Shown here one piece after another: positions 795-14,379 of a stretch of 64,000 bases of DNA (the first letter of the stretch is position 1; each line of letters begins with the position of its first letter). Under the pieces are notes generated by a model. The model was not told the DNA's origin. It saw only the letters and a list, made by a program, of their open reading frames with translations, and did no database searches. The position numbers and the translations under genes are program-made. This DNA comes from Chryseolinea sp. (GTDB lineage Bacteria > Bacteroidota > Bacteroidia > Cytophagales > Cyclobacteriaceae): positions 1 to 64,000 of the forward strand of contig JAICGJ010000006.1 of assembly GCA_025923195.1 (NCBI GenBank), given 5' to 3'.

Positions 795-825
795 GACTAA
801 CTATTATTGTAGTCTTTAAATAGAA

Positions 826-1473
826 ATGGCGAAGGAAATTAATGTATTCAACGAAACATTGGAATTATGGCCTCAAAAGGCTGTTCGATGGAGAAAGCAC
901 AACGTGCTTTTCATTTCTGACCTTCATCTCGGAAAAATAAATCACTTCCGGAAGTCGGGTATAGCAGTGCCTACAAAGGCAAATGACAGAAATCTTGAAA
1001 TCTTGATTGACTTGTTGTACTTAACAAAACCTGACAGAGTCATTTGTTTGGGCGATTTATTCCATAGCCATTATAATCCCGAATGGGAGGTATTTGGTGA
1101 AGTAGTCAGGAACTTCAAATACATTTCATTTGAACTTGTATTGGGAAATCACGACATCATGAGCAAGATACAATATAACCGCAAGGGAATTCTCCTTCAC
1201 GACATCCTGCGCCTTGATCCCTTTATCTTTACACACCACCCAATGTCGGAAATGGCGCAACAGTGTTATAATATCGCCGGACATGTACATCCTGGCGTAA
1301 ATCTCCGAGGAAAAGGAAAACAATCGCTTACCTTGCCTTGCTTCTATTTTGGTGAATGTGCAGGCCTGCTGCCAGCTTTTGGAATGTTCACGGGGCTGGC
1401 AACAATACGGCCTAGAAAGGAAGACAAAATATTTGTGATCGTCGAAGACAAAATTGTTGAAGTCACCGGTTAA
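826..1473 (+). CDS. pdeM: PdeM-type metallophosphoesterase (ligase-associated DNA damage response family)
   Basis: A 215-residue calcineurin-like phosphoesterase with all metal-binding motifs: DLHLG at 32-36, GDLFH at 76-80, GNHD at 107-110, HHP near 137 and GHVHP at 152-156. Length and the N-terminal leader (WPQKAVRW) match the small phosphoesterase usually found beside an ATP-dependent DNA ligase, a Lhr-like helicase and a beta-CASP exonuclease in bacterial repair clusters. None of those partners is in this window, so here it is an orphan. The CapA-like gene begins 4 bp after its stop, which suggests co-transcription. The superfamily is certain; the repair role is inferred from family resemblance only. 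Confidence 0.85.
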   Translation: MAKEINVFNETLELWPQKAVRWRKHNVLFISDLHLGKINHFRKSGIAVPTKANDRNLEILIDLLYLTKPDRVICLGDLFHSHYNPEWEVFGEVVRNFKYISFELVLGNHDIMSKIQYNRKGILLHDILRLDPFIFTHHPMSEMAQQCYNIAGHVHPGVNLRGKGKQSLTLPCFYFGECAGLLPAFGMFTGLATIRPRKEDKIFVIVEDKIVEVTG

Positions 1474-1476
1474 CGT

Positions 1477-2610
1477 ATGAGATTCTTTACGGCATTTTCG
1501 TTCTGCCTTCTGCTGACACAGTCGTTCGCACAGGATACTACGCGAATCTCGTTACTCTTTGCTGGCGATGTTATGGGGCACGATTCACAAATTGCTTCGG
1601 CCTTTGATCCACAAAAAAAAGCTTACGACTATACCTCCTGCTTTCAATTTGTTAGGCCGTATGTTGACTCCGTTGACCTTGCCATTGCAAATCTTGAGGT
1701 CACGCTGGCGGGGCCGCCCTTCAAAGGGTATCCGCAATTCAGTTCTCCGGATGAACTTGCAATCACATTGAAGGACATTGGGTTCGATGCATTGGTGACG
1801 GCAAATAACCACTGCGTTGATAGAGGGCGGAAAGGTTTGGAACGTACTATTTCCATGCTGGATAGCTTTAAGATCGCTCATACAGGCACTTTCATCGATT
1901 CTGCCTCAAGACTAAACGAAACTCCCCTGATCATGGAGAAGAACGGATTCAGACTGGCCGTTCTCAACTATACCTACGGAACAAATGGAATCTCGGTAAC
2001 CAAACCCAATATTGTCAACCATCTTGATACTGCGATGATGCGTCAGGATCTTCTCAAGACAAAAGAAGCAAAGCCGGATGTTATCATAGTATTTACGCAT
2101 TGGGGCGACGAGTACCAGAGCCTTCCCTCAAAGTGGCAAAAAGATCTCACGGAGTTTTGCTTCAAGAACGGTGCTCAGCTGGTTATCGGTGCGCACCCGC
2201 ATGTTCTGCAACCGATGGAGTGGCGAAAGGAAAAAAATCAATTTGTAGCCTATTCGTTAGGGAACTATGTTTCAGGACAACGGAAGCGTTATACCGATGG
2301 GGGAGCGATGGCCTACTTGGAACTTAAAAAAATAAATTATGCTGCCGATAGCGCGCTGGTGACTATTGACAGCGCAGGATACTACTTAAGTTGGGTATAT
2401 CGAACTGTCGACGCTCACAAGGACTACTACATCCTTCCGGTCGACGGTCAACCGCACCTGAATTTTATTAAGGACACGGAATCCAGGGCCTCTTATAAAG
2501 TATTTGTGGAAGACTCTAGGCTCTTATTTAGGAAGTTCAGCAAGAATGTCGAAGAGATGAAAAGGATGCCAGTTGGTTATGCGGAGCCGCCGCCACTAGA
2601 GGGCCCTTAA
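1477..2610 (+). CDS. CapA/PGA-cap family metallophosphatase-like protein, secreted
   Basis: 377 residues with a signal peptide (about 1-18, ending SFAQ). The CapA fold motifs are in order: FAGDVMGHD around 28-36, ANLEVTL near 70, TANNHCVDRG near 108, THWGDEY near 207, GAHPHVLQP near 237 and SLGNYVS near 262. These residues form the dinuclear-metal site of the poly-gamma-glutamate capsule protein family. The protein is probably periplasmic. No capB, capC or capE homologue is present, so a capsule locus is not supported; many stand-alone CapA proteins have unknown substrates. Its stop codon overlaps that of the convergent EamA gene (TTAA shared at 2607-2610). Confidence 0.85.
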   Translation: MRFFTAFSFCLLLTQSFAQDTTRISLLFAGDVMGHDSQIASAFDPQKKAYDYTSCFQFVRPYVDSVDLAIANLEVTLAGPPFKGYPQFSSPDELAITLKDIGFDALVTANNHCVDRGRKGLERTISMLDSFKIAHTGTFIDSASRLNETPLIMEKNGFRLAVLNYTYGTNGISVTKPNIVNHLDTAMMRQDLLKTKEAKPDVIIVFTHWGDEYQSLPSKWQKDLTEFCFKNGAQLVIGAHPHVLQPMEWRKEKNQFVAYSLGNYVSGQRKRYTDGGAMAYLELKKINYAADSALVTIDSAGYYLSWVYRTVDAHKDYYILPVDGQPHLNFIKDTESRASYKVFVEDSRLLFRKFSKNVEEMKRMPVGYAEPPPLEGP

Positions 2611-3494
2611 CGCTGCCGCTTATTTAGTATATAGACTGCTGCAATTCCAAGCAACCCACCGAAGATTGTATGCGCCTCGATCTTTTCACCAAGAAAAATC
2701 CACGATCCTAACGCAGCAGAAAACGGGACGAGGAAAATAAAACTGCTGGCCTTGCTCGACCCAATCTTCGAAGTAGCCACGAAGTAAAACGTAGTCGCCA
2801 ATGATGTAGTGATCGTAGCACTGAAAAACAGATTGCCCCAGAATCTAAGGTCCGCATTTTTAAAAGTAGAGACGGTCGAATCAATCCCAGCAAACGGAAA
2901 CATCATACACGTGCTTATTCCATACATCAGAAAGCTGAACGACAGGGAAGAGCCATAGCGGTTTGCCCTTGAGGTGACGCGCGACAAGACTGACCATGCA
3001 ACAGCAGCAACCAGGAAATAAATATTACCTGCCCTGAAGATTTCATCAGCGTCTGAAACTAATTTTAGAAGAATTATCCCGGCTGCCAGGCCAAGGAACA
3101 GCCCCACGGATTCGTTACGAGTAGGCCTCCTTCGCGCGATAACTAAACCGATGGCATATGTAATGATTGGATTTAAAACAGTTACAAGCACGCCACCGGC
3201 TCCCGCCTTTCCTACACTGACCCCTTTAAAAAAGAGAAATGTATAAACTGATATTAGTACAGACGCAATTAGCAGATCAACGACACCTTTTCTGCTTATC
3301 AGCATTTTCTCCTTTAGCGGCGGAAGAATAAAAATGAGGGAAACAAACGTTAACGCAAATCTGTAAAAGGAAATGGTAATCGCATCGCCATAGGCCGAGA
3401 GAACTTTCCCAGCGGTCCAGCTAAAGCCCCAACATGTCATGCTCACAATCATTCCAAAAAGGAAAATTCTGTTGTCAGCGGTTCGTTCAATCAT
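2607..3494 (-). CDS. DMT-superfamily (EamA) transporter
   Basis: 295 residues, about ten hydrophobic segments arranged as two EamA repeats. Repeat one includes GFSWTAGKVLSAYG and the segment ISFYRFALTFVS; repeat two includes TITTSLATTFYFVATSKIGSSKAS followed by FLGEKIEAHTIFGGLLG, the classic end of the second repeat. Family members export metabolites such as amino acids or small cations; the substrate cannot be told from sequence. It starts with ATG and stands alone, convergent with the CapA-like gene. Confidence 0.9.
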   Translation of the reverse strand: MIERTADNRIFLFGMIVSMTCWGFSWTAGKVLSAYGDAITISFYRFALTFVSLIFILPPLKEKMLISRKGVVDLLIASVLISVYTFLFFKGVSVGKAGAGGVLVTVLNPIITYAIGLVIARRRPTRNESVGLFLGLAAGIILLKLVSDADEIFRAGNIYFLVAAVAWSVLSRVTSRANRYGSSLSFSFLMYGISTCMMFPFAGIDSTVSTFKNADLRFWGNLFFSATITTSLATTFYFVATSKIGSSKASSFIFLVPFSAALGSWIFLGEKIEAHTIFGGLLGIAAVYILNKRQR

Positions 3495-3530
3495 AAATGG
3501 CAGATCGCTTCAATTAGAGCCCTATATAAA

Positions 3531-3560
3531 GAAAATAACCTGCTCTTATGAGCAGGTTAT
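3531..3560 (-). terminator. Intrinsic terminator after the phosphonate minus-strand operon
   Basis: An 11-bp perfect stem (3535-3545 with 3550-3560, loop TTAT on the plus strand) is followed on the minus strand by a T-rich run (TTTCTTTATA). It lies 25 bp beyond the stop of the beta-barrel gene and would end that transcription unit. Confidence 0.75.
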
Positions 3561-3584
3561 GATGAAAGACTTAAAATTAAAAGT

Positions 3585-4295
3585 TTATCTTCGCTTCCTC
3601 CTCTTGGCAGGACTACTTCCTTGTCCGGTATCAAAAATAACTCCGATTGAGAATTCAAGTCCGGTCAAGTCGATCTTCGCGTCTGTGAACTCAACTTGCC
3701 TGGTTTCAAGGGCGGTCGTTCCCCCTGTATAATCCCCTTTCAAAGGAAATTCAGAATCACCCATCAGGTAATTACATTCCAACGAAATGCCTAGCTGCTG
3801 GGTTACATAGATTGTGAGTTCAGTGCCGAAGAGAAATCCCCAGCCGGGCTTGTTGTCATAAGTGAAATTGCTGTTTGCTACTTCCCAGTTTTCATAATTT
3901 CGAATCGCGCGATCAAAGTTGCCGTAATTGATCTTTTGGCTAAAACCGTAGAACCCGAATACCCCTCCCTTCACATCAAATTCTAGAGTCGACCCTTTTA
4001 GTTGAAAGACAATCTCGGCAGGCACCAGTATCGTAAAATTTGGCCCCACCAGCGCGTCCTTCGTTTCAAAGGGCAGATCTTTCACATTTAATCCGGACAT
4101 CCTGTAAAGGGAAGCCCCGGTTTCAAGCGCTATAAAGCGATTGACGTCGACGCCGATCCCCCGTATCGAAAAAGGACTGATAGGTGTAGAGAAATAACCG
4201 TTTTTTGGAATAAAATAGGAAAAAGATAATCCAAATTGTTGGCCCCATGCGGAGGTGCTCACCATCAATAGAATAAATACGATTCTATAAATCAT
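3585..4295 (-). CDS. Small outer-membrane beta-barrel protein of unknown function
   Basis: 236 residues from the ATG at 4295, chosen because it gives a clean signal peptide (MIYRIVFILLMVSTSAWGQQ); a TTG 33 bp upstream would add a charged extension. The mature part alternates polar and hydrophobic residues in short strands separated by turns, as in 8-10 strand porin-like barrels of Bacteroidota. It ends in a basic tail (AKRRKRR). I recognise no specific family. It overlaps the AEP transaminase gene by 11 bp and is the last gene of that operon, which hints at translational coupling, but its link to phosphonate metabolism is only positional. Confidence 0.7.
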   Translation of the reverse strand: MIYRIVFILLMVSTSAWGQQFGLSFSYFIPKNGYFSTPISPFSIRGIGVDVNRFIALETGASLYRMSGLNVKDLPFETKDALVGPNFTILVPAEIVFQLKGSTLEFDVKGGVFGFYGFSQKINYGNFDRAIRNYENWEVANSNFTYDNKPGWGFLFGTELTIYVTQQLGISLECNYLMGDSEFPLKGDYTGGTTALETRQVEFTDAKIDLTGLEFSIGVIFDTGQGSSPAKRRKRR

Positions 4296-5418
4296 TACTT
4301 GTTTTGCCTCCTTCGATGTTAAGACCAAAATCTAAATAGTCCTTTAGCTCTTGTAAGAAATTTTCAATATCACGCTTATGAAGATCTCCCAGCACCGACA
4401 GCCTGAAGGTTGCGGCCTTGGCGCCTTTGCCAGGATAAATCGTATAGCCGCGCTGGTATAAATAATCGTGCATGGTGTCAAAGTTGTATCTTGGGTCCGA
4501 GGGTTCAATTACAGCCAGAAGTATTTTGGATTGATGCCTTTCCGGCAACAAAAATTCAAACCTCAGTTTTTTAAGACCCTGACAAAGAGTTACCCAATTC
4601 TCCTGATAGCGATCCCACCGCCTTATTTCTCCCTCAACAAAATATTCGTCAAGCGCTTGTCGCAACGCATACGCTACCTGTACAGGTGGTGTGAATTGCA
4701 TTTGACCGGTTTTTTCAAAGCCAACATATTGGCTATACAGATCAAAATAGAATGATCGCTTTTGACCGCGCAGCGACGGTAACAATGCTTTTTTAAAAAT
4801 CACGAAAACCATTCCTGGCATTCCCTGTATGCACTTGTTTGATGACGAAATAAGATATCCGGCCCCCCATTGTTTAATGTCGATGGGTATCCCTGCGTAA
4901 GAACTCATGCAATCTACGATTACTTCCACGTCGAACTTTCGGGCAACGTCACAAATTGACTGTACAGGGTTCAACATTCCCGTTGTTGTTTCGTGGTGAA
5001 CCACCGCGATATGGCTCACACCGGCGTTTGATCTCAATAGGTTTTCGATGTGATCAACGTCAGGGTAGTCACCATAGGCCAGTTTATACAAAACGACTTC
5101 AATCTCAAATGTCGCTGCGATATTTGCCATACGGGCTCCATAAGCGCCATTGTCAACAATCAAGATTTTTTTTTCTCTGGGCACTGCCGATGTTATCGCC
5201 GCCTCAAGTCCGCCGGTACCGCTAGCTGTAAATAGAGCACAAACATAATCATCACCACCATGAACAACTTTTACAAGATCTTCCTTGACGGTGTCCAGCA
5301 GTTTACAAAAATCCTTTTCGCGAGGACAGATATCTTCTACAACCATCGCTTCCTTTACGGTGTCAGTTGTAGTGGCGGGTCCGGGGTTGAGTAAAATTTT
5401 GCGTCTTACATCCTTCAT
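4285..5418 (-). CDS. 2-aminoethylphosphonate transaminase (class V, PhnW-like, biosynthetic context)
   Basis: 377 residues, the usual length for AEP:pyruvate transaminases. LLNPGPATTT opens the protein; TASGTGGLEA (64-73) holds the PLP phosphate; VDC with Asp169 contacts the pyridine nitrogen; SSSNKCIQGMPG carries the Schiff-base Lys195, a signature shared with PhnW. The family interconverts AEP plus pyruvate and phosphonoacetaldehyde plus alanine. No phosphonatase (PhnX) or PhnY/PhnA genes are nearby, and the divergent operon makes phosphonoacetaldehyde, so here it should run in the biosynthetic direction to make AEP. It begins 3 bp after the phosphotransferase gene and is co-transcribed with it. 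Confidence 0.9.
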   Translation of the reverse strand: MKDVRRKILLNPGPATTTDTVKEAMVVEDICPREKDFCKLLDTVKEDLVKVVHGGDDYVCALFTASGTGGLEAAITSAVPREKKILIVDNGAYGARMANIAATFEIEVVLYKLAYGDYPDVDHIENLLRSNAGVSHIAVVHHETTTGMLNPVQSICDVARKFDVEVIVDCMSSYAGIPIDIKQWGAGYLISSSNKCIQGMPGMVFVIFKKALLPSLRGQKRSFYFDLYSQYVGFEKTGQMQFTPPVQVAYALRQALDEYFVEGEIRRWDRYQENWVTLCQGLKKLRFEFLLPERHQSKILLAVIEPSDPRYNFDTMHDYLYQRGYTIYPGKGAKAATFRLSVLGDLHKRDIENFLQELKDYLDFGLNIEGGKTSNDL

Positions 5419-5421
5419 GTT

Positions 5422-6408
5422 CTATGTGCGTAAGTTTAACCAGACCCAATACACTTTCAAAACAGAAAAAGTCTTAACGATCAATATGCAAATGCTTACT
5501 GATAAATAGGCAGTCAACATTGTAAATAGATAATCGCCGTATGTAAACCCCGGAACAAATAAAAGGAGGAGGCCGACAGGGCTGACAAAGTCTGTTGAGC
5601 GCTCCACTCCGTCGATCAGGTGCCCATACATGACTTTTCCAATATATAAACTCGCGTAGAGCGTCAGTAATACGAACAATTGAAATGATGTAAAAAATGG
5701 CAGCGCCAGTATGCCAACGACTGTCATGAGGAGGGTAAAAAACCAGAAGTCGGCTGTAACATCCGGAGTTCGTTTCCACGTTTTTATGAACGTAATTAGT
5801 CCGCCCAAAGAAGACAGTATTATCAGCGTCTCAATAAACGAATAGTTTTCAAATAAAATATAACTGAAAGTTGAATTGACAGTTGGAACGGAAGAAAACG
5901 CGATAAGCAACGCTGAAAGCAATACTCCCTCTAGTGATCCAACCGGTTCAAACGTCAGCCAGCCCGTTTTGAATTGCTCATAGAAAACGGCCATGTGTGC
6001 CCAGTACGAAATAATAATCACGGCTGCGATTACGGCTTTGTGAGAGATTCCGAAGACCGTGATCATGGTGAACATGATCACACCGTTGTTAAAGGCATCC
6101 AGGTAGTGATCGCAAAACTCGCCGAGCGCAGATCCCGTGCCTGTACGCTTGGCTTGCATTCCGTCAAGATGGTCACCAATAAGATAAAGGATCAAGCTGA
6201 CTGCAATTAGTAATGGATTTGCTTTGCCGAATAATTCGGGATTCAACGCGAGGTATAAGCTAACATATACAAAACCATTGGAGACCAATGTGATAATATT
6301 TGCTGGTATCGCCCAGGGAACGAATTTAATCAATGGAGTAATGATCCACCGTTTGAAAGACGGAGTTACTAATGAGAAATCCTTGCACCTGTATTGATAA
6401 GGTCTCAT
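5422..6408 (-). CDS. CDP-alcohol phosphatidyltransferase, eukaryotic CEPT-like; candidate AEP-lipid synthase
   Basis: 328 residues from ATG 6408; a TTG at 6525 would add 39 residues, but the ATG start already aligns with the N-terminus of choline/ethanolamine phosphotransferases (YQYRCKDFSLVTPSF, then PWAIPANIITLVS). The active-site motif runs D79-x2-D82-G83-x2-A86-K87-R88-x7-G96-x3-D100-x3-D104; all four Asp and both Gly are present, but the usual Ala-Arg is Ala-Lys followed by Arg. About eight to ten membrane segments follow. CEPT enzymes move a CDP-activated aminoalcohol phosphate onto diacylglycerol. Beside AEP-making genes, the likely donor is CMP-AEP and the acceptor diacylglycerol or ceramide; the substrate is inferred. 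Confidence 0.82.
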   Translation of the reverse strand: MRPYQYRCKDFSLVTPSFKRWIITPLIKFVPWAIPANIITLVSNGFVYVSLYLALNPELFGKANPLLIAVSLILYLIGDHLDGMQAKRTGTGSALGEFCDHYLDAFNNGVIMFTMITVFGISHKAVIAAVIIISYWAHMAVFYEQFKTGWLTFEPVGSLEGVLLSALLIAFSSVPTVNSTFSYILFENYSFIETLIILSSLGGLITFIKTWKRTPDVTADFWFFTLLMTVVGILALPFFTSFQLFVLLTLYASLYIGKVMYGHLIDGVERSTDFVSPVGLLLLFVPGFTYGDYLFTMLTAYLSVSICILIVKTFSVLKVYWVWLNLRT

Positions 6409-6618
6409 GGAGCAAATGAAGTGAAATAAATATTTAAAAAAACTTCGTGCTTCCCAATTTATTTTGCTTACATCTCCTGTGTATTGTTTCAAGCACAACT
6501 GTCTTATTCCGCGCTTTGTTAGCAAATGAAATGCGCTTCGACGCTTACCGAATGTTTGAAAATAGTGCTGATCGGCCCTTATTTTATCAGAGCATTAAAA
6601 AGATATTACGATAAGATG

Positions 6619-6626
6619 TATTTTTG
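6619..6626 (+). promoter_or_regulatory. TAnnTTTG (-7) element before the PEP mutase operon
   Basis: TATTTTTG matches the Bacteroidota -7 consensus and would start transcription near 6631, about 23 nt before the ATG at 6654. This argues against the TTG at 6624 as start, since it lies inside the motif. No convincing -33 TTTG was found at normal spacing. The 245-bp region 6409-6653 is the divergent control region for both phosphonate operons. Confidence 0.45.
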
Positions 6627-6653
6627 GCCGCATTTTTAACAGCAACTTTTAGC

Positions 6654-8252
6654 ATGAAGAAAACAACTCAGCTCCGGTCAATGGTCTTTTCGCCTGAAAT
6701 GGCTTTTCTGATGGAGGCTCATAACGGACTATCTGCAAAGATTGTTGAGGAAGCTGGCTTTAAAGGGATTTGGGGAAGCGGCTTATCCATTTCGGCTGCT
6801 CTTGGTGTAAGGGATAACAATGAGGCGTCCTGGACACAGGTATTAGATGTCCTGGAGTTTATGAGCGATGCTACCAGCATCCCAATCTTGTTGGACGGAG
6901 ATACTGGCTACGGCAATTTCAACAATATGCGTAGGCTGGTGAAGAAGTTAGAACAACGCGATATAGCGGCAGTCTGCATTGAAGACAAACTTTTTCCAAA
7001 GACCAACTCCTTTATTGGGGGAGAGAATCAGCCGCTGGCCGATGTGGATGAATTCAGCGGGAAAATCAAGGCCGCAAAAGACACCCAATCGGATGATGAT
7101 TTTATGGTTGTTGCCCGCCTGGAAGCGTTTATAGCAGGCTGGGGGTTAGACGAAGCCTTGCGCAGGGCCGATGCTTATCACAAGGCTGGCGCAGATGCCA
7201 TTCTTTGTCATAGCAAAAAGGCGGACTCTTCCGATATCGACGCTTTCATGAAACAATGGGGAAATCGATGTCCGGTGATCATTGTACCTACCAAATATTA
7301 TTCGATTCCCACGGATCATTTTAAAAGGATTGGTGTAAGTACCATTATCTGGGCGAATCATAATGTCAGGTCATCCATTAAGGCTATGCAGGAAACGTCC
7401 ATGCGAATATTTAAGGAACAAACGTTGATTAATGTAGAAGGAAAGGTTGTTAGCGTAAATGAGATCTTCCGTTTGCAAGGCGCGGATGAGCTTGAAGCGG
7501 CAGAAGAAAAGTATTTGCCGACGGCTGGAAAAAAAGTACATGGCATTATACTGGCGGCAAGCCAGGGGTCTCTTGGCGAGTTGACAAAAGAAGTCCCTAA
7601 GACGTTGTTGGAGGTGCATGGTAAATCTTTGCTTGCCACGCAGGTTGAAGAATTTAATCACCTAGGGATAAAGGATGTTACCGTAGTACGGGGTTTTAAG
7701 AAGGAAAAGGTAGCACTCAGTAACATTAGCACAGTAGACAACGATGAGTTTGCTACTACTAAAGAACTTTATTCATTATTCCTTGCGAAAGATGAGATCC
7801 AAGACAATACGGTGATCAGCTATGGTGACATTATTTTCAAGCGTTATGTGCTGCATGAGTTGCTCAATGATCAAAACGATATCACACTCGTTGTTGATGC
7901 GGATTGCGAAGAGGAGGGAATTGATAAAGATTTTGTAGCAGCCTCTGAAAAATACGATAGGACGAATTATTCAGCTACTTCTGTGTTTAAAAAAATGGGA
8001 TCGGACTTATACAAGAATGACATCGTTGGTGAGTTCATTGGACTTTGGAAAGTAAACAAAACCGGTGCTGCTCAGGTCTTGAGAGCGCTGGGTACATTAA
8101 GTAAGGATAAGAACTTTAAATCAATGACGTGCACTGATCTCTTTAATGAAATTGCCAGAGAACATACTATTGCTATCAAATATATTAGCGGTGCCTGGCT
8201 GGACGTTGATACACTTGTTGATCTTCAAAATGCTGGAAAACTTCGGCTATAA
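6654..8252 (+). CDS. pepM: Phosphoenolpyruvate mutase fused to a nucleotidyltransferase domain
   Basis: 532 residues. Residues 1-270 are PEP mutase: GVRDNNEAS with Asp54, DGDTGYG (81-87), the diagnostic [10 protein letters not shown] (110-119) that separates PEP mutase from isocitrate lyases, and ARLEAF with Arg155. It rearranges PEP to phosphonopyruvate, the entry step of nearly all phosphonate biosynthesis. From about 297 a GT-A fold nucleotidyltransferase begins, with [17 protein letters not shown] (301-317), a GDIIF metal site and a late DVDT motif. Its signature loop lacks the usual AAG and Arg (compare LAAGMGSRL in the gene at 9393), so it may be specialised or degenerate. First gene of an operon with ppd and a second nucleotidyltransferase. 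Confidence 0.95.
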
Positions 8253-8265
8253 CATTTAATCCGAC

Positions 8266-9393
8266 ATGATTAATACAAAAAACTTTGGTGATGAGATGAA
8301 AGGCTTGGGCTTCGACTTCTATTCAGGAGTTCCATGTTCATTTTTGAAGTCACTGATCAACTATGCTATTAACGACTGCGATTACGTAATGGCTGCTAAT
8401 GAGGGGGATGCTGTGGCAGTAGCATCCGGGGCCAGGTTGGGCGGTAAGAAGTCGGTTGTATTGATGCAGAATTCGGGACTAACAAACGCCACGTCACCCT
8501 TAACATCACTGAATTTTACTTTCAAATTGCCTGTGTTAGGGTTTGTAAGTCTGCGCGGCGAACCCGGGGTAAAGGACGAACCCCAACACGAATTGATGGG
8601 CCAGATTACAGAGAAAATGTTGGCGCTGATGAAGATTGAATGGGCTTATCTCTCTGCAGATGAGACTGAGGCATCATTGCAGTTGAAGCAGGCAAATGCT
8701 TTCATTGAAGAAGGACGTACTTTCTTTTTTGTTGTTAAAAAGGGAACTTTTGGAGATGTCAAACTGAATCCTCAACCCCTAAAACAAGTATCAAACCTTA
8801 AGCTGAAAAAATCTTCCTCAAAGCAAAGTTACCCGATTCGAACACAAGCATTAAAAGCAGTTTCAGACCTCGTGGATCAGCGTACGGTGTTGTTGGCTAC
8901 CACGGGCAAAACTGGAAGGGAACTTTTTGAAGTAGAAGATAAGCCTAATAACCTTTACATGGTTGGCTCAATGGGATGTATCAGCTCGTTAGGACTCGGT
9001 CTGGCGATGGCGCGCCCTGACAAGAAAATAATTGTCATTGACGGAGACGGCTCTGCACTTATGCGGATGGGTTGCTTTGCCACCAACGCCTACTATCAGC
9101 CGAAAAATCTGTTGCATATTTTGCTGGACAACAATGCTCACGACTCAACCGGTGGGCAGGCAACGGTTTCACATATCGTTGACTTTGCTTCAATGGCATC
9201 CGCTGTCAGCTATCCCGTTGCACTTCAGGTCAATACATTGGTGGAATTGGAAGAAGCTATCAAGCAATGGACTCTCGATAACGAACTTACCTTTATTCAC
9301 TTAAGAATAGCACAAGGTTCACCTCCGGAATTAGGCCGACCAGCGGTCAAGCCGTTTGAAGTAAAAGACAGACTGATCAAATTCATGGCCTGA
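8266..9393 (+). CDS. ppd: Phosphonopyruvate decarboxylase
   Basis: 375 residues, typical of TPP-dependent phosphonopyruvate decarboxylases. The N-terminal half has FYSGVPCSFLKSL and ANEGDAVAVASG, where Glu46 is the TPP-activating Glu; the C-terminal half has the TPP/Mg motif GDGSALMRMG (about 262-271) closing with LLDNNAHDSTGGQ. It converts phosphonopyruvate to phosphonoacetaldehyde and CO2, pulling the unfavourable PEP mutase equilibrium forward. The gene begins 13 bp after pepM and overlaps the next start codon (TGATG), so the three genes form a tight operon. Confidence 0.95.
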   Translation: MINTKNFGDEMKGLGFDFYSGVPCSFLKSLINYAINDCDYVMAANEGDAVAVASGARLGGKKSVVLMQNSGLTNATSPLTSLNFTFKLPVLGFVSLRGEPGVKDEPQHELMGQITEKMLALMKIEWAYLSADETEASLQLKQANAFIEEGRTFFFVVKKGTFGDVKLNPQPLKQVSNLKLKKSSSKQSYPIRTQALKAVSDLVDQRTVLLATTGKTGRELFEVEDKPNNLYMVGSMGCISSLGLGLAMARPDKKIIVIDGDGSALMRMGCFATNAYYQPKNLLHILLDNNAHDSTGGQATVSHIVDFASMASAVSYPVALQVNTLVELEEAIKQWTLDNELTFIHLRIAQGSPPELGRPAVKPFEVKDRLIKFMA

Positions 9394-10127
9394 TGAAATC
9401 TCAAGTTAAGACGGCAGTGATACTGGCCGCCGGAATGGGCTCTCGCTTGAAGGATCACACTGAGGATCAACCGAAAGGGTTTATTGAGATAGATGGACAG
9501 TCATTGATAGAAAGATCGATGAAATCCCTCCTACGGACGGGTTTCACAGAAATCATCATCGGTACAGGATACCTTCATGATCATTTTGAATTGCTGAAGC
9601 AAAAATATCCGGTCACTACTTTTCGCAGTGTGGACTACAGCACGACTGGAAGCATGTACACACTTTACGTATTAAGGCATTTGATCAAATCGCCATTTCT
9701 GCTTCTGGAGAGTGACCTGCTGTACGATCCAGCTGCCCTCGTGTTTCTGTTGGAGGATCCCTTGGAAGATATTATTCTGGCAAGTGGTGCCACGAATTCG
9801 GGTGACGAGGTTTTCATACAGGCCACCGCAGATAATAAGCTCCAGCAGATGAGCAAGGATCGGAATATATTGAAACATATCAGCGGCGAACTTGTGGGAA
9901 TAACAAAATTATCTGTTGCTACCCTCGCGAGGATGTGTGCCTTTTCAGAAACGCATTATAATAAAGGCAACAGGATGTTACACTACGAAGATGCACTTGT
10001 GGGTGCTGCTGCCTTACATCCCATTCACGTCAAAGTCGTTGAGGACCTCGCGTGGTGTGAGATAGATGATGATAACCATTTGAGCCGCGCCCTTAACCTG
10101 ATTTACCCGAAGCTGAAAGGAAAGTAG
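9393..10127 (+). CDS. Nucleotidyltransferase, candidate AEP cytidylyltransferase (PntC-type)
   Basis: 244 residues of GT-A nucleotidyltransferase with a canonical signature LAAGMGSRLKDHTEDQPK (11-28), the metal-binding LLLESDLLY (Asp108) and a late WCEIDDDNHLSRA motif carrying the second metal Asp. The same architecture is found in choline-phosphate cytidylyltransferase LicC and in AEP cytidylyltransferases of phosphonate clusters. Here it would make CMP-AEP from CTP and AEP, the activated headgroup that a CDP-alcohol transferase needs. Start and ppd stop overlap by 1 bp. Family is sure; substrate follows from context. Confidence 0.85.
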   Translation: MKSQVKTAVILAAGMGSRLKDHTEDQPKGFIEIDGQSLIERSMKSLLRTGFTEIIIGTGYLHDHFELLKQKYPVTTFRSVDYSTTGSMYTLYVLRHLIKSPFLLLESDLLYDPAALVFLLEDPLEDIILASGATNSGDEVFIQATADNKLQQMSKDRNILKHISGELVGITKLSVATLARMCAFSETHYNKGNRMLHYEDALVGAAALHPIHVKVVEDLAWCEIDDDNHLSRALNLIYPKLKGK

Positions 10128-10280
10128 ATATTATACAACTTAGTTGGATAGTGAATATTGTTATTTGTTGAGTATTCTAATTGGTCAAATTAGTTCTATG
10201 TCGATAAATTAGACATCCAATATTCGACATTCAGTAATGACCGTTCAAGAAACATGTAATAACAAATACAACGGATTTCA

Positions 10281-12110
10281 ATGAAGCAACGGCTGATCAT
10301 CCTCTTCTCCGGTTTTATTGCCTGGACGTTCATTTACCTCGTCGCACGAGGATTGTTCATGGTTTATCACAGCAATTTATCAAACGAGCTCACCATACCC
10401 GAAATGTTGCTCGTTTTTGTGCACGGTATCCGCATGGACTTTTCTATGGCGGGCTATTATTCGTTGTTTCCGGGACTGCTCTTTTCGCTCGGATTTTTTC
10501 TCAGTGGAAAGAGAATTTGGCCTATTTGGTTAGGCTATCAGGCAATTGTATTGTTTGTAACGACTTTCATTATCATTCTTGATTTCGAATTATACAAGCA
10601 TTGGGGATTCAGGCTTGACGCAACGCCATTGATGTACGTTGGAAAGGAAGCTGCGGGATCAGGCGATTTCTGGCAAACCATTTTCCTGATCTGTTACTGG
10701 CTGGTCATGTTTAGTGCCAGCGTGTTCGCATTTTATAAATATTTTAAGAAAAGGATCATTCGACTCCCCCCAACCGATTGGAAAGCCCTACCCGCAATTA
10801 TATTTGCTACGGCGCTCTTCATTATACCCATCCGGGGAAGTTTTGGTGTTGCTCCTATGAATTCTGGTTTCGTTTATTTTCATGAAAAAAAAATGTTCGC
10901 CAATCATGCCGCCGTCAACGGGGTTTGGAATTTTCTGTATGCTGTTCAAAAAATGCGCAAGCTAAAATATGCAGACAATTATTTTGACAGAGAAGCTACA
11001 AAACAAATTTTTGACGACCTGCTCTTGGATTCCGACAGCACCGCCAAACTATTGAACACCGACACCCCTAATATCGTCATTATTGCCATGGAGAGCTTTA
11101 CCAGCGGGTTCATTGAACCGCTGGGAGGTTTACCCGGAATCACGCCACGATTCAATGCGCTCATAAGGGATGGTGTACTGTTTGATCGTTTTTACAGCAG
11201 CGGCGACCGCACTGACAAAGGTATTGTGGCGATTCTAAATGGTTACCCTTCACAACCTCTTACCTCTATCATTAAGGAGCCAAAGCGCACAAAAAGCCTT
11301 CCTTATTTAAATAAGGCTTTCAAGGACCGCGGGTATCTGACTGAATTCACGTATGGGTACAATATCAATTATGCTAATTTTAATTCCTATCTGATTCACG
11401 CCGACTTTGATCACGTGACACACAGTGCGGATTTTCCGCAGGAATTGAACACAAGCAAATGGGGCGTTCATGATGAGTTTGTTTTTGATAAATTCTTTGA
11501 GGAGTGTCAAGAGGCATCAAGTCCTTTTTTTAAAGTAATGATGACTCAAAGCAGCCACGAACCATTTGATGTTCCGATGGAGACCGTTATCAATGGCAAT
11601 GACGAAATTTCTCAATTTCTGAATGCAGCTTACTATGCCGACAAGCACCTGGGAATATTCATCGACAAGGCAAAACAGAGCCCATGGTGGAAAAATACAA
11701 TTATCGTTATCACAGCAGACCATGGGCATCTGTACCCCAATAATCCCGGTGTATCAAATCCTGACCGGTTCAAAATCCCGATGTTGTGGTTGGGTGGGGC
11801 ATTGAATGTTAGGGACACCGTTATACATACCGTGGGGAGTCAGACAGATATCCCAAATACTATTCTTGGTCAGTTTGGTATGGACTCCCGCGATTTTAAA
11901 TTCGGTCAGAATATTTTAGGAACACCATACAATCCCTTTGCCGTTTACGTTTATAACAACGGTTTCGGCATGATAAAGCCAGACAGGCTTTTCGTTTATG
12001 ATAACGTATCCGGCTCTATTATTCAACGGGTGGGTGATATAAAAGATGATGACCTTTCTGAGGGAAAAGCGTTTATTCAAACCCTCTATTGGGATTTTAA
12101 TTCGCGTTGA
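10281..12110 (+). CDS. LtaS-type membrane sulfatase-fold transferase
   Basis: 609 residues: about five N-terminal membrane helices (roughly 5-27, 58-75, 82-102, 133-153, 172-187) and a periplasmic alkaline-phosphatase-fold domain from about 262. Metal and catalytic residues are visible: Glu271 in IIAMES, nucleophile Thr311 in SGDRTDKG, and ITADHGH near 475. Family members move glycerol-phosphate or phosphoethanolamine from phospholipid onto envelope polymers or lipids. A Gram-negative cell has no lipoteichoic acid, so the acceptor is unknown. It follows the phosphonate operon on the same strand after 153 bp; use of an AEP-lipid as donor is possible but unproven. Its last 25 bp overlap the convergent DUF2062 gene. 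Confidence 0.85.
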   Translation: MKQRLIILFSGFIAWTFIYLVARGLFMVYHSNLSNELTIPEMLLVFVHGIRMDFSMAGYYSLFPGLLFSLGFFLSGKRIWPIWLGYQAIVLFVTTFIIILDFELYKHWGFRLDATPLMYVGKEAAGSGDFWQTIFLICYWLVMFSASVFAFYKYFKKRIIRLPPTDWKALPAIIFATALFIIPIRGSFGVAPMNSGFVYFHEKKMFANHAAVNGVWNFLYAVQKMRKLKYADNYFDREATKQIFDDLLLDSDSTAKLLNTDTPNIVIIAMESFTSGFIEPLGGLPGITPRFNALIRDGVLFDRFYSSGDRTDKGIVAILNGYPSQPLTSIIKEPKRTKSLPYLNKAFKDRGYLTEFTYGYNINYANFNSYLIHADFDHVTHSADFPQELNTSKWGVHDEFVFDKFFEECQEASSPFFKVMMTQSSHEPFDVPMETVINGNDEISQFLNAAYYADKHLGIFIDKAKQSPWWKNTIIVITADHGHLYPNNPGVSNPDRFKIPMLWLGGALNVRDTVIHTVGSQTDIPNTILGQFGMDSRDFKFGQNILGTPYNPFAVYVYNNGFGMIKPDRLFVYDNVSGSIIQRVGDIKDDDLSEGKAFIQTLYWDFNSR

Positions 12111-12565
12111 GGAAATCTGAACCAACGACTGAACATCAGAAAAAATAAGTAATACAACACAAAGAAAAGAGGAATTGAAAAGGTTGCCCATACGCCAGCG
12201 CCCAGCATCAACGCGAGGCCTGCTTCCTTGAGCAACAAGAAAAAATCAGTGCGATACATTGTTATCAATTGATCCATATTATAAGGAAATGGATTAAGGT
12301 GAAAAAGTATCGTACCTACTTTGATAAAGGGAATTATGAAAAGTATTTGAAGAGGGGCGACGAGATAATTCACTAACTGGATAAGGGGAATATTTAGTCT
12401 GAATGCGATTGCTACACCGAAACAAAGAATGGTTGTCGTACCAAAAATGGGGAATATTCCAATCAACACGCCAGCAGCACAGGTTGCCGAAAGCTTATGA
12501 GGCGTTAGGCCTTGACGAAAGGCATCATACAATACTTTTTTAAAATGACGCCGGCTGAATTTCAT
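12086..12565 (-). CDS. DUF2062 membrane protein
   Basis: 159 residues. The family pattern is plain: basic N-terminus, FRQGLTPHKLSATCAAGVLIGIFPIFGTTT, then FRLNIPLIQLVNYLVAPLQI and two C-terminal hydrophobic segments. DUF2062 proteins are small inner-membrane proteins, sometimes fused to or beside glycosyltransferases and lipid acyltransferases; no biochemical function is established. It is convergent with, and overlaps by 25 bp, the LtaS-like gene. Confidence 0.85.
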   Translation of the reverse strand: MKFSRRHFKKVLYDAFRQGLTPHKLSATCAAGVLIGIFPIFGTTTILCFGVAIAFRLNIPLIQLVNYLVAPLQILFIIPFIKVGTILFHLNPFPYNMDQLITMYRTDFFLLLKEAGLALMLGAGVWATFSIPLFFVLYYLFFLMFSRWFRFPQRELKSQ

Positions 12566-12663
12566 AAATATGGTAAATTCTGAGTCATAAAAAATGAGTT
12601 GCTTTTGTCATCAGGCACCCAAAGATAATGGAATGATGTTTCATATATTGTGATTTGTTAATC

Positions 12664-14379
12664 ATGATTAGTCCGTCACTCTTAAAAATATATTGCATTT
12701 GCCTGGCAATACTGTTCGGGTGCTCTACCGAGAAAGTTGCTGATCTAGTGATTCTCGGAGGCAAAATTTACACTGCTAATGAGAAAGCCAAGATATCTGA
12801 GGCGGTCGCTGTTACTGGCGACAAAATAACTTTCGTTGGTGCGGAGGAGAACGCGAATAAATTGATTGGTGACAAAACAGAGGTGATCGATCTGGAAGGC
12901 AAAATTTTGACACCAGGATTTATCGAGGGCCACGGACACATTATGGGCGTGGGATACAATGAACTCGAACTGGATCTTTCGGACATCAAGAGCTATGACG
13001 AAATGGTTGATGTAGTAAGGCAAGCTGCTAGTAAATCAACGCCGGGGGAGTGGATACTGGGACGTGGGTGGCATCAGGAGAAATGGGAGATGAAACCGGA
13101 GGCGATGATCAATGGATTTCCCGTTCACGACAAGCTCAGCGCCGTATCGCCGGATAATCCCGTTTTTCTGCGCCATGCGAGTGGCCATGCAGGATTTGCG
13201 AATGCGAAAGCGATGGAAGTTGCTGGTGTGAATACACTTTCCACGGAAAAATATAAACGAGAAGACAGTGAAGGAGGTGAAGTTCTTCGCGATGCGTTGG
13301 GCAACCCAACCGGTATATTCAACGAACGGGCGATGGGCCTTATTGATGAACATATTCCAGAAAAGACGCCAGAAAAAGACGCCCAGGCATTAGATCTGGC
13401 GATCAGATCGTGTCTGCGGAACGGCATCACAAGCTTTCAGGATGCTGGCGCCTCGCGGGAGTCCATTCAACTCTTTCATAATTTCAAACGAGCCGGGAAG
13501 TTGGGAGTTCGTCTGTACGTCATGGTAAGTGGAAATGATCCGCAGCATGTTTACGAATGGTTTAAGAATGGGCCTGAAATAGATTCATCTGGTCAACTAA
13601 CGATACGTTCTATCAAGCTTCATTGTGACGGTGCCTTGGGATCCAGGGGTGCATGGTTGCTGGAGCCTTATAGTGATCGCCCCGGTTTTTCGGGAATGGC
13701 GACGTTGTCTATGGATACCGTTACGAAAATATCGCGAGAAGCCCTTAAGTCAGATTTTCAGGTATGCGCCCATGCGATAGGGGACAGGGCCAACCGGGAA
13801 GTGCTGGATCGCTATGAAATGGCCTTCAAAGAAAACCCCACGAAGGCGTCTGACCACCGGTTTCGTATAGAGCATGCTCAGCATATTCATCCTGATGATA
13901 TACCTCGCTTTGCAAAGCTGGGGGTCATCCCCGCAATGCAGGCGATTCACATGTCATCAGACAGGCAGTGGGCGATTGATAGGCTGGGAGAACAACGAAT
14001 TAAAGAGAGCGCATACATGTGGCAGGCCTTGTTGAAGTCCGGGGCAAAAATTGTAAACGGTACAGACGCACCTGTGGAGCCGCTGAACCCAATTCCGTCC
14101 TTTTACGCGTCTGTTACCCGCAAGACTTTGAAGGGATTTCCAGAAAGTGGCTATGAGCCGGAACAGAAAATGACGCGGATTCAGGCCTTGCGTTCCTATA
14201 CAATTGATGCGGCATTTGCAGCCTTTGAAGATTCAATCAAGGGTTCCATCGAGCCCGGGAAGTTGGCAGACTTCACCGTTTTCACACACGACCTCATGAC
14301 AGTACCAGAAGATCAGATTCTGCAAACTGAAGTATTCATGACGATCGTTGGCGGTAAGGTCGTCTATCGAAGGCCATAA
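12664..14379 (+). CDS. Amidohydrolase family 3 lipoprotein (YtcJ-like)
   Basis: 571 residues from ATG 12664 (a TTG 9 bp earlier is an alternative). The N-terminus is a lipoprotein signal with lipobox LFGC, so the enzyme should be anchored in the cell envelope. The metal-dependent hydrolase motifs follow: PGFIEGHGHI (first HxH), HCDGALGSRGA, CAHAIGDRANREVLDRYE, RIEHAQHI and NGTDAPVEPLNP with the catalytic Asp. YtcJ-like proteins hydrolyse amides or N-formyl groups; the substrate cannot be read from sequence. Single-gene unit; the TerB-like gene converges on it. Confidence 0.88.
   Translation: MISPSLLKIYCICLAILFGCSTEKVADLVILGGKIYTANEKAKISEAVAVTGDKITFVGAEENANKLIGDKTEVIDLEGKILTPGFIEGHGHIMGVGYNELELDLSDIKSYDEMVDVVRQAASKSTPGEWILGRGWHQEKWEMKPEAMINGFPVHDKLSAVSPDNPVFLRHASGHAGFANAKAMEVAGVNTLSTEKYKREDSEGGEVLRDALGNPTGIFNERAMGLIDEHIPEKTPEKDAQALDLAIRSCLRNGITSFQDAGASRESIQLFHNFKRAGKLGVRLYVMVSGNDPQHVYEWFKNGPEIDSSGQLTIRSIKLHCDGALGSRGAWLLEPYSDRPGFSGMATLSMDTVTKISREALKSDFQVCAHAIGDRANREVLDRYEMAFKENPTKASDHRFRIEHAQHIHPDDIPRFAKLGVIPAMQAIHMSSDRQWAIDRLGEQRIKESAYMWQALLKSGAKIVNGTDAPVEPLNPIPSFYASVTRKTLKGFPESGYEPEQKMTRIQALRSYTIDAAFAAFEDSIKGSIEPGKLADFTVFTHDLMTVPEDQILQTEVFMTIVGGKVVYRRP

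Follow-up and report, generated by a model that had tools for sequence, protein, structure and literature searches.

What a bacterium does with 2-aminoethylphosphonate (AEP) once it has been made and activated is the question raised by a gene cluster of Chryseolinea sp. (assembly GCA_025923195.1, contig JAICGJ010000006.1). We analysed 64,000 nt of this contig (forward strand, positions 1-64,000; hereafter the window), in which genes predicted to make, activate and lipid-load AEP are followed by a gene for an LtaS-like membrane phosphotransferase. Our preferred reading, to which we give a probability of roughly 0.45, is that an AEP phosphonolipid is made and serves as the donor for transfer of AEP by the LtaS-like enzyme to an acceptor in the cell envelope. 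In this scheme phosphoenolpyruvate (PEP) mutase, phosphonopyruvate decarboxylase (PPD) and AEP transaminase (AEPT) would make AEP, PntC would activate it to CMP-AEP, and a choline/ethanolamine phosphotransferase (CEPT)-type enzyme would load AEP from CMP-AEP onto diacylglycerol to give the phosphonolipid. At the outer face of the inner membrane, the LtaS-like enzyme would remove AEP from this lipid and pass it to the envelope acceptor, and the diacylglycerol released in that step could be recharged by the CEPT-type enzyme.

The window was compared with a family-wide sample of 148 genomes, an order-wide sample of 390 and a class-wide sample of 395, together with a scan of named genomes that gave 24 loci. 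These loci included Chryseolinea sp. H1M3-3, the cultured strains Splendidivirga corallicola BMA10 (L107) and Fulvivirga lutimaris KCTC 42720 (L106), metagenome-assembled genomes (MAGs) of Cyclobacteriaceae and Flammeovirgaceae and one Desulfobacterales MAG.

Predicted synthesis, activation and lipid loading of AEP

The three enzymes of AEP synthesis scored above their family cut-offs. The PEP mutase matched TIGR02320 with 393.5 bits (cut-off 319.55) and the solved PEP mutase 1m1b by phmmer (E 1.2e-139), and its sequence [10 protein letters not shown] fits EDKxxxxxNS, described as the PEP mutase (Ppm/PepM) motif in a section of PMC6697681. The PPD reached 407.8 bits against TIGR03297 (cut-off 312.5) and contains the thiamine pyrophosphate motif GDG...NN. 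The AEPT, with its pyridoxal phosphate lysine Lys195 in place, scored 430.5 bits against TIGR03301 (cut-off 360.8), 371.3 against NF010006 (cut-off 296) and 358.2 against TIGR02326, below the cut-off of 400.8. Since the cut-offs of both TIGR03301 and NF010006 were exceeded, these models do not tell the direction of the transaminase reaction.

The protein encoded from position 9393 is a near full-length homologue of the solved and assayed PntC of T. denticola (6pd1; phmmer E 4e-66 over residues 5-241). In the alignment to 6pd1 it keeps R18, K28, K155, E106 and E199, which correspond to Arg15, Lys25, Lys153, Glu104 and Glu196 of the T. denticola enzyme (Tde-PntC). According to part of PMC6697681, loss of Arg15, Lys25 or Lys153 reduced the activity of Tde-PntC to less than 10%, and Glu104 and Glu196 face AEP. 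The prediction that this protein is a PntC-type AEP cytidylyltransferase, the maker of CMP-AEP, is thus well supported by its sequence.

A second nucleotidyltransferase domain (PF12804; 7548-8252), missed in the initial annotation, is fused to the PEP mutase. Such fusions are common, with 33% of Ppm proteins carrying this domain by the account in part of PMC6697681. The signature GxG(T/S)R was changed to LAASQG(S/T/N), one residue shorter and without the Arg but with the Lys kept, in each of the 11 fusions compared, including one from Desulfobacterales; the window signature, likewise without Arg, reads [10 protein letters not shown]. All 10 PntC sequences in the comparison, nine of them separate proteins and one an AEPT fusion, kept the Arg. 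The later acidic residues of the fused domain, in GD and WLD(V/I)D, were invariant in six aligned fusions. From these residues the fused domain is probably not the maker of CMP-AEP, and it is possible that it is a pseudo-enzyme or a regulatory domain.

The CDP-alcohol transferase matched PF01066 (33.4 bits, cut-off 22) and contains the four-Asp/Gly pattern of the family in the motif DHLDGMQAKRT...GEFCDHYLD. A structural model built with 20 aligned sequences (mean pLDDT 91.7) superposed on cholinephosphotransferase 8ul9 with Z 33.5 and 17% identity, 327 of 329 residues being aligned. CDP-alcohol transferases from archaea and bacteria were far behind, with Z at most 14.6 and at most 191 residues aligned, the next type reaching 14.6 over 187. 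The closest folds are therefore choline/ethanolamine phosphotransferases, one of them solved with diacylglycerol. Because the match to CPT1/CEPT1 spans nearly the whole length, the label CEPT-like given in the initial annotation is correct, and an acceptor of the diacylglycerol type is the obvious first assumption; diacylglycerol itself would be the acceptor in the scheme proposed here.

An Arg is expected in the DGxxAR motif of CDP-alcohol phosphotransferases. At this position the window transferase has Lys (AKRT), with an Arg one residue later. Lys was found here in all aligned pepM-linked Bacteroidota homologues and Arg in the Desulfobacterales locus (L109), the spirochaete homologues and two distant homologues (G142, G036). 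The AKRT sequence was dropped as an AEP-specific mark, being present in three loci with no pepM in the stretch (L110, L114, L116) and absent from the pepM-linked L109. In a Treponema locus (L122, 2645-5333) a homologue with 25% identity adjoins a gene that joins a nucleoside triphosphate (NTP) transferase to a choline/ethanolamine-kinase-like domain. The two form a compact Kennedy-type pair, and the earlier classification of this homologue as a solo transferase was withdrawn. Since it looks Kennedy-type, membership of the transferase family does not in itself indicate use of AEP.

By family, residue and fold tests, AEP synthesis, activation to CMP-AEP and CEPT-fold transfer to a lipid acceptor are well supported. 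The initial annotation had named a PEP mutase, a PPD, an AEPT with Lys195, a nucleotidyltransferase with an intact signature and a CEPT-like CDP-alcohol transferase, and the model scores, motifs, PntC residues and whole-length CPT1 fold bear out each of these assignments.

Linkage and putative headgroup pocket of the LtaS-like protein

Linkage was counted in 10 distinct Bacteroidota genomes with the pepM fusion: the window, L101 (G015), L102-L105, L107 (G016), G107, G110 and G046. Loci L106, L108, L111, L115 and L124 were not counted for linkage on those contigs, where the cluster is partial or truncated by the contig end. In all eight pepM-fusion contigs that extend beyond ppd, the LtaS-like gene comes after pntC, directly in five (the window, L101, L102, L104, L105) and after one HAD gene in three (G107, L103, L107). 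L102 and L104 show a 4-base overlap between the pntC and LtaS-like open reading frames (ORFs). For G046 and G110 the LtaS-like gene was found on a separate contig, where it adjoins a partial pntC or a HAD gene. The LtaS-like gene thus adjoins pntC or HAD in 10/10 pepM-fusion genomes, in several different neighbourhoods. A survey for co-occurrence of the cluster genes had been suggested in the initial annotation, and because the arrangement recurs in other genomes it is not due to chance. This conserved linkage suggests that the LtaS-like gene may work with the cassette.

The cassette gene set is rare in the genomes sampled. Family-wide, 9/148 genomes had a CDP-alcohol transferase match, of which two were distant homologues and one was a fragment; the pepM fusion, at an identity of at least 67%, occurred in 6/148. 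Order-wide, the CDP-alcohol transferase profile matched 6/390 genomes, one marginally and with stops. Class-wide, the window's own genome was the only one of 395 with the pepM fusion (E 1e-30); 119/395 had LtaS-like relatives (E 1e-60).

Related gene sets were found in other loci. In the Desulfobacterales locus L109 (5388-10987) the pepM fusion, ppd, a PntC-AEPT fusion and the CDP-alcohol transferase lie on one strand; by eye, the ORFs that follow resemble a macro-domain protein and an RNA 2'-phosphotransferase. A second pepM lineage (a PF01467 fusion, with PPD 37% identical) in L112 and L113 also has a CDP-alcohol transferase and an LtaS-like gene. In two genomes with no pepM match (G142 and G036; L019, L020), a distant CDP-alcohol transferase (27-28% identical, Glu replacing the last motif Asp) is encoded divergently from LtaS-like and diacylglycerol kinase genes, an arrangement that may represent a different headgroup pathway built on the same plan. 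In L014 (7594-9537) and L116 (7459-9396) the gene immediately upstream of the CDP-alcohol transferase encodes a third LtaS-like paralogue (about 23% identical); the L116 contig, of 17.8 kb, has no pepM. Five spirochaete loci (L117-L121) have the CDP-alcohol transferase without other cassette genes. Nine of the 148 genomes (G032, G035, G051, G060, G102, G103, G131, G133, G141) have another kind of pepM-like gene (35-40% identity), with no CDP-alcohol transferase and no LtaS-like relative better than about E 1e-5. Since both partners are absent there, the link of the LtaS-like gene is with the lipid-type cluster and not with pepM as such. An ORF (31%) beside HAD and LtaS-like genes in L094 (G075) was rejected as a CDP-alcohol transferase, having no Pfam match and no motif.

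The LtaS-like protein of the window has the residues of an LtaS/EptA-like headgroup transferase: the catalytic T311, the metal/His residues E271, D480 and H481, and H426 as counterpart of the substrate histidine. We aligned 32 LtaS-like proteins (609 columns), 10 of them pepM-fusion-linked; three long-branch proteins (G041, G063, G075) were excluded from the careful tree and retained in the column counts. The E, H, D and H were invariant in 32/32. Position 311 was Thr in 26 proteins, including all 10 that are pepM-fusion-linked, and Ser in six, none of which is so linked. The structures nearest to the model of the protein were 3lxq (uncharacterised), LtaP and LtaS.

The 10 pepM-linked proteins were invariant in 150 of the 609 columns, and at only three of these positions, Y360, Y364 and M421, was the residue matched in at most two of the 22 others. 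Y360 and Y364 align with Asp349 and Phe353 of S. aureus LtaS, and A365 and F367 with Trp354 and Arg356 (phmmer to 2w5q, with chain position 130 taken as His347 from motif spacing). An excerpt of PMC12732334 names these four LtaS residues as substrate-binding, with D349, W354 and R356 as ligands of glycerol phosphate. Because these three ligands are replaced in the window protein (by Y360, A365 and F367), it is not LtaS proper. M421 lies five residues ahead of the counterpart of the LtaS substrate histidine His416. The probability that three columns drawn at random from the 150 would all fall in these two loops is 0.0005, a value computed post hoc. The same scan on the clade of LtaS-like proteins found in the slot described below gave four diagnostic columns, none in the headgroup loops. 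The best 28 new LtaS-like loci of the class sample, in which the pepM fusion occurs only in the window's own genome, had Gly at position 360 in 28, Phe at 364 in 27 and Met at 421 in two. Y360 and Y364 occurred together in 10/10 pepM-linked proteins versus 0/50 others, and each alone once among the 50. AEP would be the headgroup handled by this pocket, and the putative transfer would end on a surface acceptor.

The locus, its slot and the rest of the genome

The five genes at 4285-10127 that the initial annotation had described as two divergent operons are all in place and all match their families (Table 1). The span runs from the stop end of AEPT at 4285 to the stop end of pntC at 10127. Its description as a complete set holds for these five genes, but the PEP mutase ORF is a fusion, the conserved order runs past 10127, and the starts were corrected: the probable start of the CDP-alcohol transferase is ATG 6408 (328 aa) and that of the PEP mutase ATG 6654 (532 aa). 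A sigma-70 consensus scan for promoters was uninformative (14 sites versus 19.3 in shuffled sequence, no excess). A hairpin behind the gene for a predicted outer-membrane protein (OMP), at 3560-3535, is terminator-like, and such sites were barely above shuffles (10 versus 8.6). The OMP frame with TTG start 4328 overlaps AEPT by 44 bases; an ATG eleven codons in reduces the overlap to 11.

Table 1. Features of the AEP cassette and its flanks in the window
Feature	Position	Strand	Basis or remark
Predicted outer-membrane protein (OMP; by look, no family match)	3585..4328	-	Flanks the slot downstream of AEPT; not counted as part of the cassette
AEP transaminase (AEPT)	4285..5418	-	TIGR03301, Lys195
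CEPT/CPT1-type CDP-alcohol phosphotransferase, proposed CMP-AEP:diacylglycerol transferase	5422..6408	-	PF01066, model fold, motif
Divergent intergenic region, presumed home of both promoters	6409..6653	.	From gene positions
PEP mutase fused to divergent PF12804 nucleotidyltransferase domain	6654..8252	+	TIGR02320, phmmer to 1m1b
Phosphonopyruvate decarboxylase (PPD)	8266..9393	+	TIGR03297, TPP motif GDG...NN
Predicted PntC, AEP cytidylyltransferase	9393..10127	+	phmmer to 6pd1, catalytic residues
LtaS-like membrane phosphotransferase, proposed AEP (phosphonoethanolamine) transferase	10281..12110	+	PF00884 132.3 bits
DUF2062 small membrane protein	12086..12565	-	PF09835; convergent with LtaS-like gene, 25 bases shared
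Amidohydrolase, other flank of slot	12655..14379	+	PF07969 357.3 bits

The OMP gene was present in 18/21 genomes tested, with or without pepM, and was dropped as a cassette member for that reason. At ten pepM-free loci it follows an LtaS-like gene, with the window's amidohydrolase on the other side in nine (the tenth contig is short), and six of these loci also carry PGA_cap and phosphoesterase genes. In two cassette-free genomes of the same genus (L153, L154) the amidohydrolase and OMP genes are adjacent with nothing between. In the window and in Chryseolinea H1M3-3 the stretch from AEPT to DUF2062 occupies this gap, which in relatives is thus either empty (two genomes) or filled by a different LtaS-like gene alone (nine loci with both flanks seen). 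DUF2062 adjoins the LtaS-like gene in 9/10 pepM-fusion genomes (absent in L107) and in 0/10 OMP-type loci. Forcing the window LtaS-like protein into the slot's other type was rejected (delta lnL 97; approximately unbiased (AU) test, p 2.8e-5), and the OMP tree groups the window with holders of that other type. On one account, the cassette arrived in the slot with its own LtaS-like gene.

Elsewhere in the genome, PssA is kept (TIGR00473 111.1 bits, cut-off 107), as is a Psd-family protein (NF003678 274.3, cut-off 225), so phosphatidylethanolamine (PE) should be made and an AEP-lipid is not a forced replacement for it. The LtaS-like protein has only one match in this genome. The statement that there is no degradation gene is accurate for the cluster but does not extend to the whole genome. 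PhnJ was not found in the genome, and the phosphonatase model TIGR01422 gave only sub-cut-off proteins, likewise in all 14 control genomes. On another contig (C85, L184), however, a Phn-HD oxygenase-like gene (795-1361, minus strand) is divergent from a PhnX-like hydrolase gene (1450-2184, plus strand); both score slightly below their NCBIfam cut-offs (213.7 versus 214.6 bits and 210 versus 218.9), and they are candidate phosphonate-degradation genes.

Competing readings and relation to known systems

The initial annotation had the AEP-lipid replace or supplement PE. The synthesis and loading route behind this proposal is supported, and the end-product role is one reading only, the PE genes being kept. 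It is a quite possible reading that the pathway ends with the AEP phosphonolipid, which would accompany PE as a bulk or minor component of the membrane, and that the neighbouring LtaS-like gene encodes an enzyme for a different substrate. The route to the AEP-lipid is complete and its CEPT fold spans the whole length. In L109 the same route was found with no LtaS-like gene in the 21 kb examined, so an AEP-lipid can be the end of a pathway, and LtaS-like proteins are common in Bacteroidia (119/395) as against the pepM fusion (1/395), in a neighbourhood partly older than the cassette. Set against this are the position of the LtaS-like gene beside pntC or HAD in all 10 pepM-fusion Bacteroidota genomes, across several neighbourhoods, and its differences from its kin at the headgroup loops. 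Because an LtaS-like headgroup transferase is linked to the cluster, we consider a donor role about as likely as replacement or supplementation of PE. An acceptor other than diacylglycerol for the CDP-alcohol transferase, either ceramide, giving a sphingophosphonolipid as in Bdellovibrio (Bacteriovorax) stolpii, or a glycolipid, is improbable: a bacterial 1-hydroxy-AEP sphingolipid is on record (Watanabe 2001, as cited in PMC4642753) and the identity of the acceptor is not readable from sequence, but the closest structural matches are choline/ethanolamine phosphotransferases, among them one whose structure contains diacylglycerol. We give very little weight to a cluster that makes free or glycan-bound phosphonate by another route, with the fused nucleotidyltransferase domain rather than PntC setting the product. 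Most bacterial phosphonate capacity is said to serve cell-surface tailoring (in a part of PMC6697681) and the fused domain is kept in 11/11 fusions, but no glycosyltransferase or LicD family was found among the ten proteins scanned (1477-12565), and the domain has lost the Arg without which Tde-PntC activity fell below 10%.

Several observations weigh against the donor reading. The LtaS-like proteins of L112 and L113, which lie beside phosphonate genes, carry Gly at 360, Phe at 364 and Ser as nucleophile; not every phosphonate link thus needs the tyrosines. The pepM-linked LtaS-like proteins may form one clade (AU p 0.32), and the three diagnostic columns may therefore mark descent. In the window a gap of 153 bases separates pntC from the LtaS-like gene. 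Further points concern the history of the slot. Forcing the window with G107, G142 and G036 in the OMP tree was not rejected (AU p 0.0975). The window's TerB-like and DUF2807 neighbours are retained beside the cassette in G107, and DUF2807 in L103; L094, which is pepM-free, carries all three of DUF2807, TerB-like and amidohydrolase genes in the vicinity of its LtaS-like gene. LtaS-like genes of other genera without pepM adjoin the same amidohydrolase, TerB-like and DUF2807 neighbours. It may therefore be that the LtaS-like gene has long occupied this site, and that the phosphonate genes were inserted next to it and disappeared again from some lineages. The neighbours shared by G107, L103 and L094 weakened a clean cassette swap, our first reading, and a further possibility is that gene and cassette were inherited together at an old locus and lost in places. 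Since the place of the LtaS-like gene is partly older than the phosphonate genes, the linkage argument is weaker. In the stretches examined, the cassettes of L102, L104, L105, L107 and G046/G110 have none of these window neighbours, so that the LtaS-like gene and the cassette stand together in several settings.

On balance, the donor reading best joins the linkage and the pocket, with the end-product view close behind. A fuller version of it is doubtful: the LtaS-like enzyme would be the missing last step of phosphonyl tailoring, with the AEP-lipid as its donor and with Y360, Y364 and M421 as the changes that adapt its headgroup pocket. The cassette, together with an LtaS-like gene of its own, would then occupy in the window's genus a slot that in other genera holds an LtaS-like gene of presumed phosphate-ester use, and the same envelope acceptor would bear carbon-phosphorus-bonded AEP where it otherwise has a phosphate-ester headgroup.

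The gene set without the LtaS-like enzyme is of an already known, predicted kind (passages of PMC5987646 and PMC6697681). The Pnt clusters of T. denticola and A. rimae share the PEP mutase-nucleotidyltransferase fusion, the AEP genes and a separate PntC with the same catalytic residues; their neighbours named in PMC6697681 are LicD-like proteins or glycosyltransferases, whereas the window has a CEPT-type lipid transferase and an LtaS-like transferase. A predicted phosphonate/phosphonolipid cluster of a lichen Nostoc, with a homologue in Burkholderia (PMC5987646), shares pepM, ppd, AEPT, an NTP transferase and a CDP-alcohol transferase, a likeness by description and not by sequence; the legend adds an oxygenase and others and names no LtaS-like or sulfatase gene. 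The earlier claim that no characterised cluster has exactly this layout therefore needs narrowing, as the gene set had been predicted in Nostoc and Burkholderia; the coupling to an LtaS-like enzyme has no counterpart in the literature listed. No LtaS-like or sulfatase-fold transferase in a phosphonate cluster appeared among the titles and abstract starts listed, a weak absence drawn from CC-licensed PMC literature only.

The LtaS-like protein shares with LtaS/LtaP (phosphatidylglycerol (PG) to lipoteichoic acid) and EptA/MCR (PE to lipid A) the alkaline-phosphatase-type domain, N-terminal helices, Thr, metal ligands and substrate His. It differs from LtaS in having Y, Y, A and F for D349, F353, W354 and R356, and in its linkage to phosphonate synthesis. 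In the proposed scheme the AEP-lipid would play the part that PE plays for EptA and PG for LtaS, the difference being its carbon-phosphorus headgroup. The window transferase shares its whole-length fold and four-Asp motif with eukaryotic CPT1/CEPT1 and differs in sequence (15-17% identity), in the Lys for the motif's first Arg, and in its presumed use of CMP-AEP instead of CDP-choline or CDP-ethanolamine.

The steps after CMP activation in the attachment of phosphonates to bacterial surfaces are called enigmatic in PMC6697681. The cassette offers candidates for both remaining steps, a lipid loader and a surface transferase, with positions to mutate, and the slot provides a natural series of empty, plain and phosphonate loci for comparison. 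The aminoethyl part of a carbon-phosphorus headgroup is not cleavable from phosphorus by ordinary phosphodiesterases. On death, cells with such a headgroup would release phosphonate to the environment.

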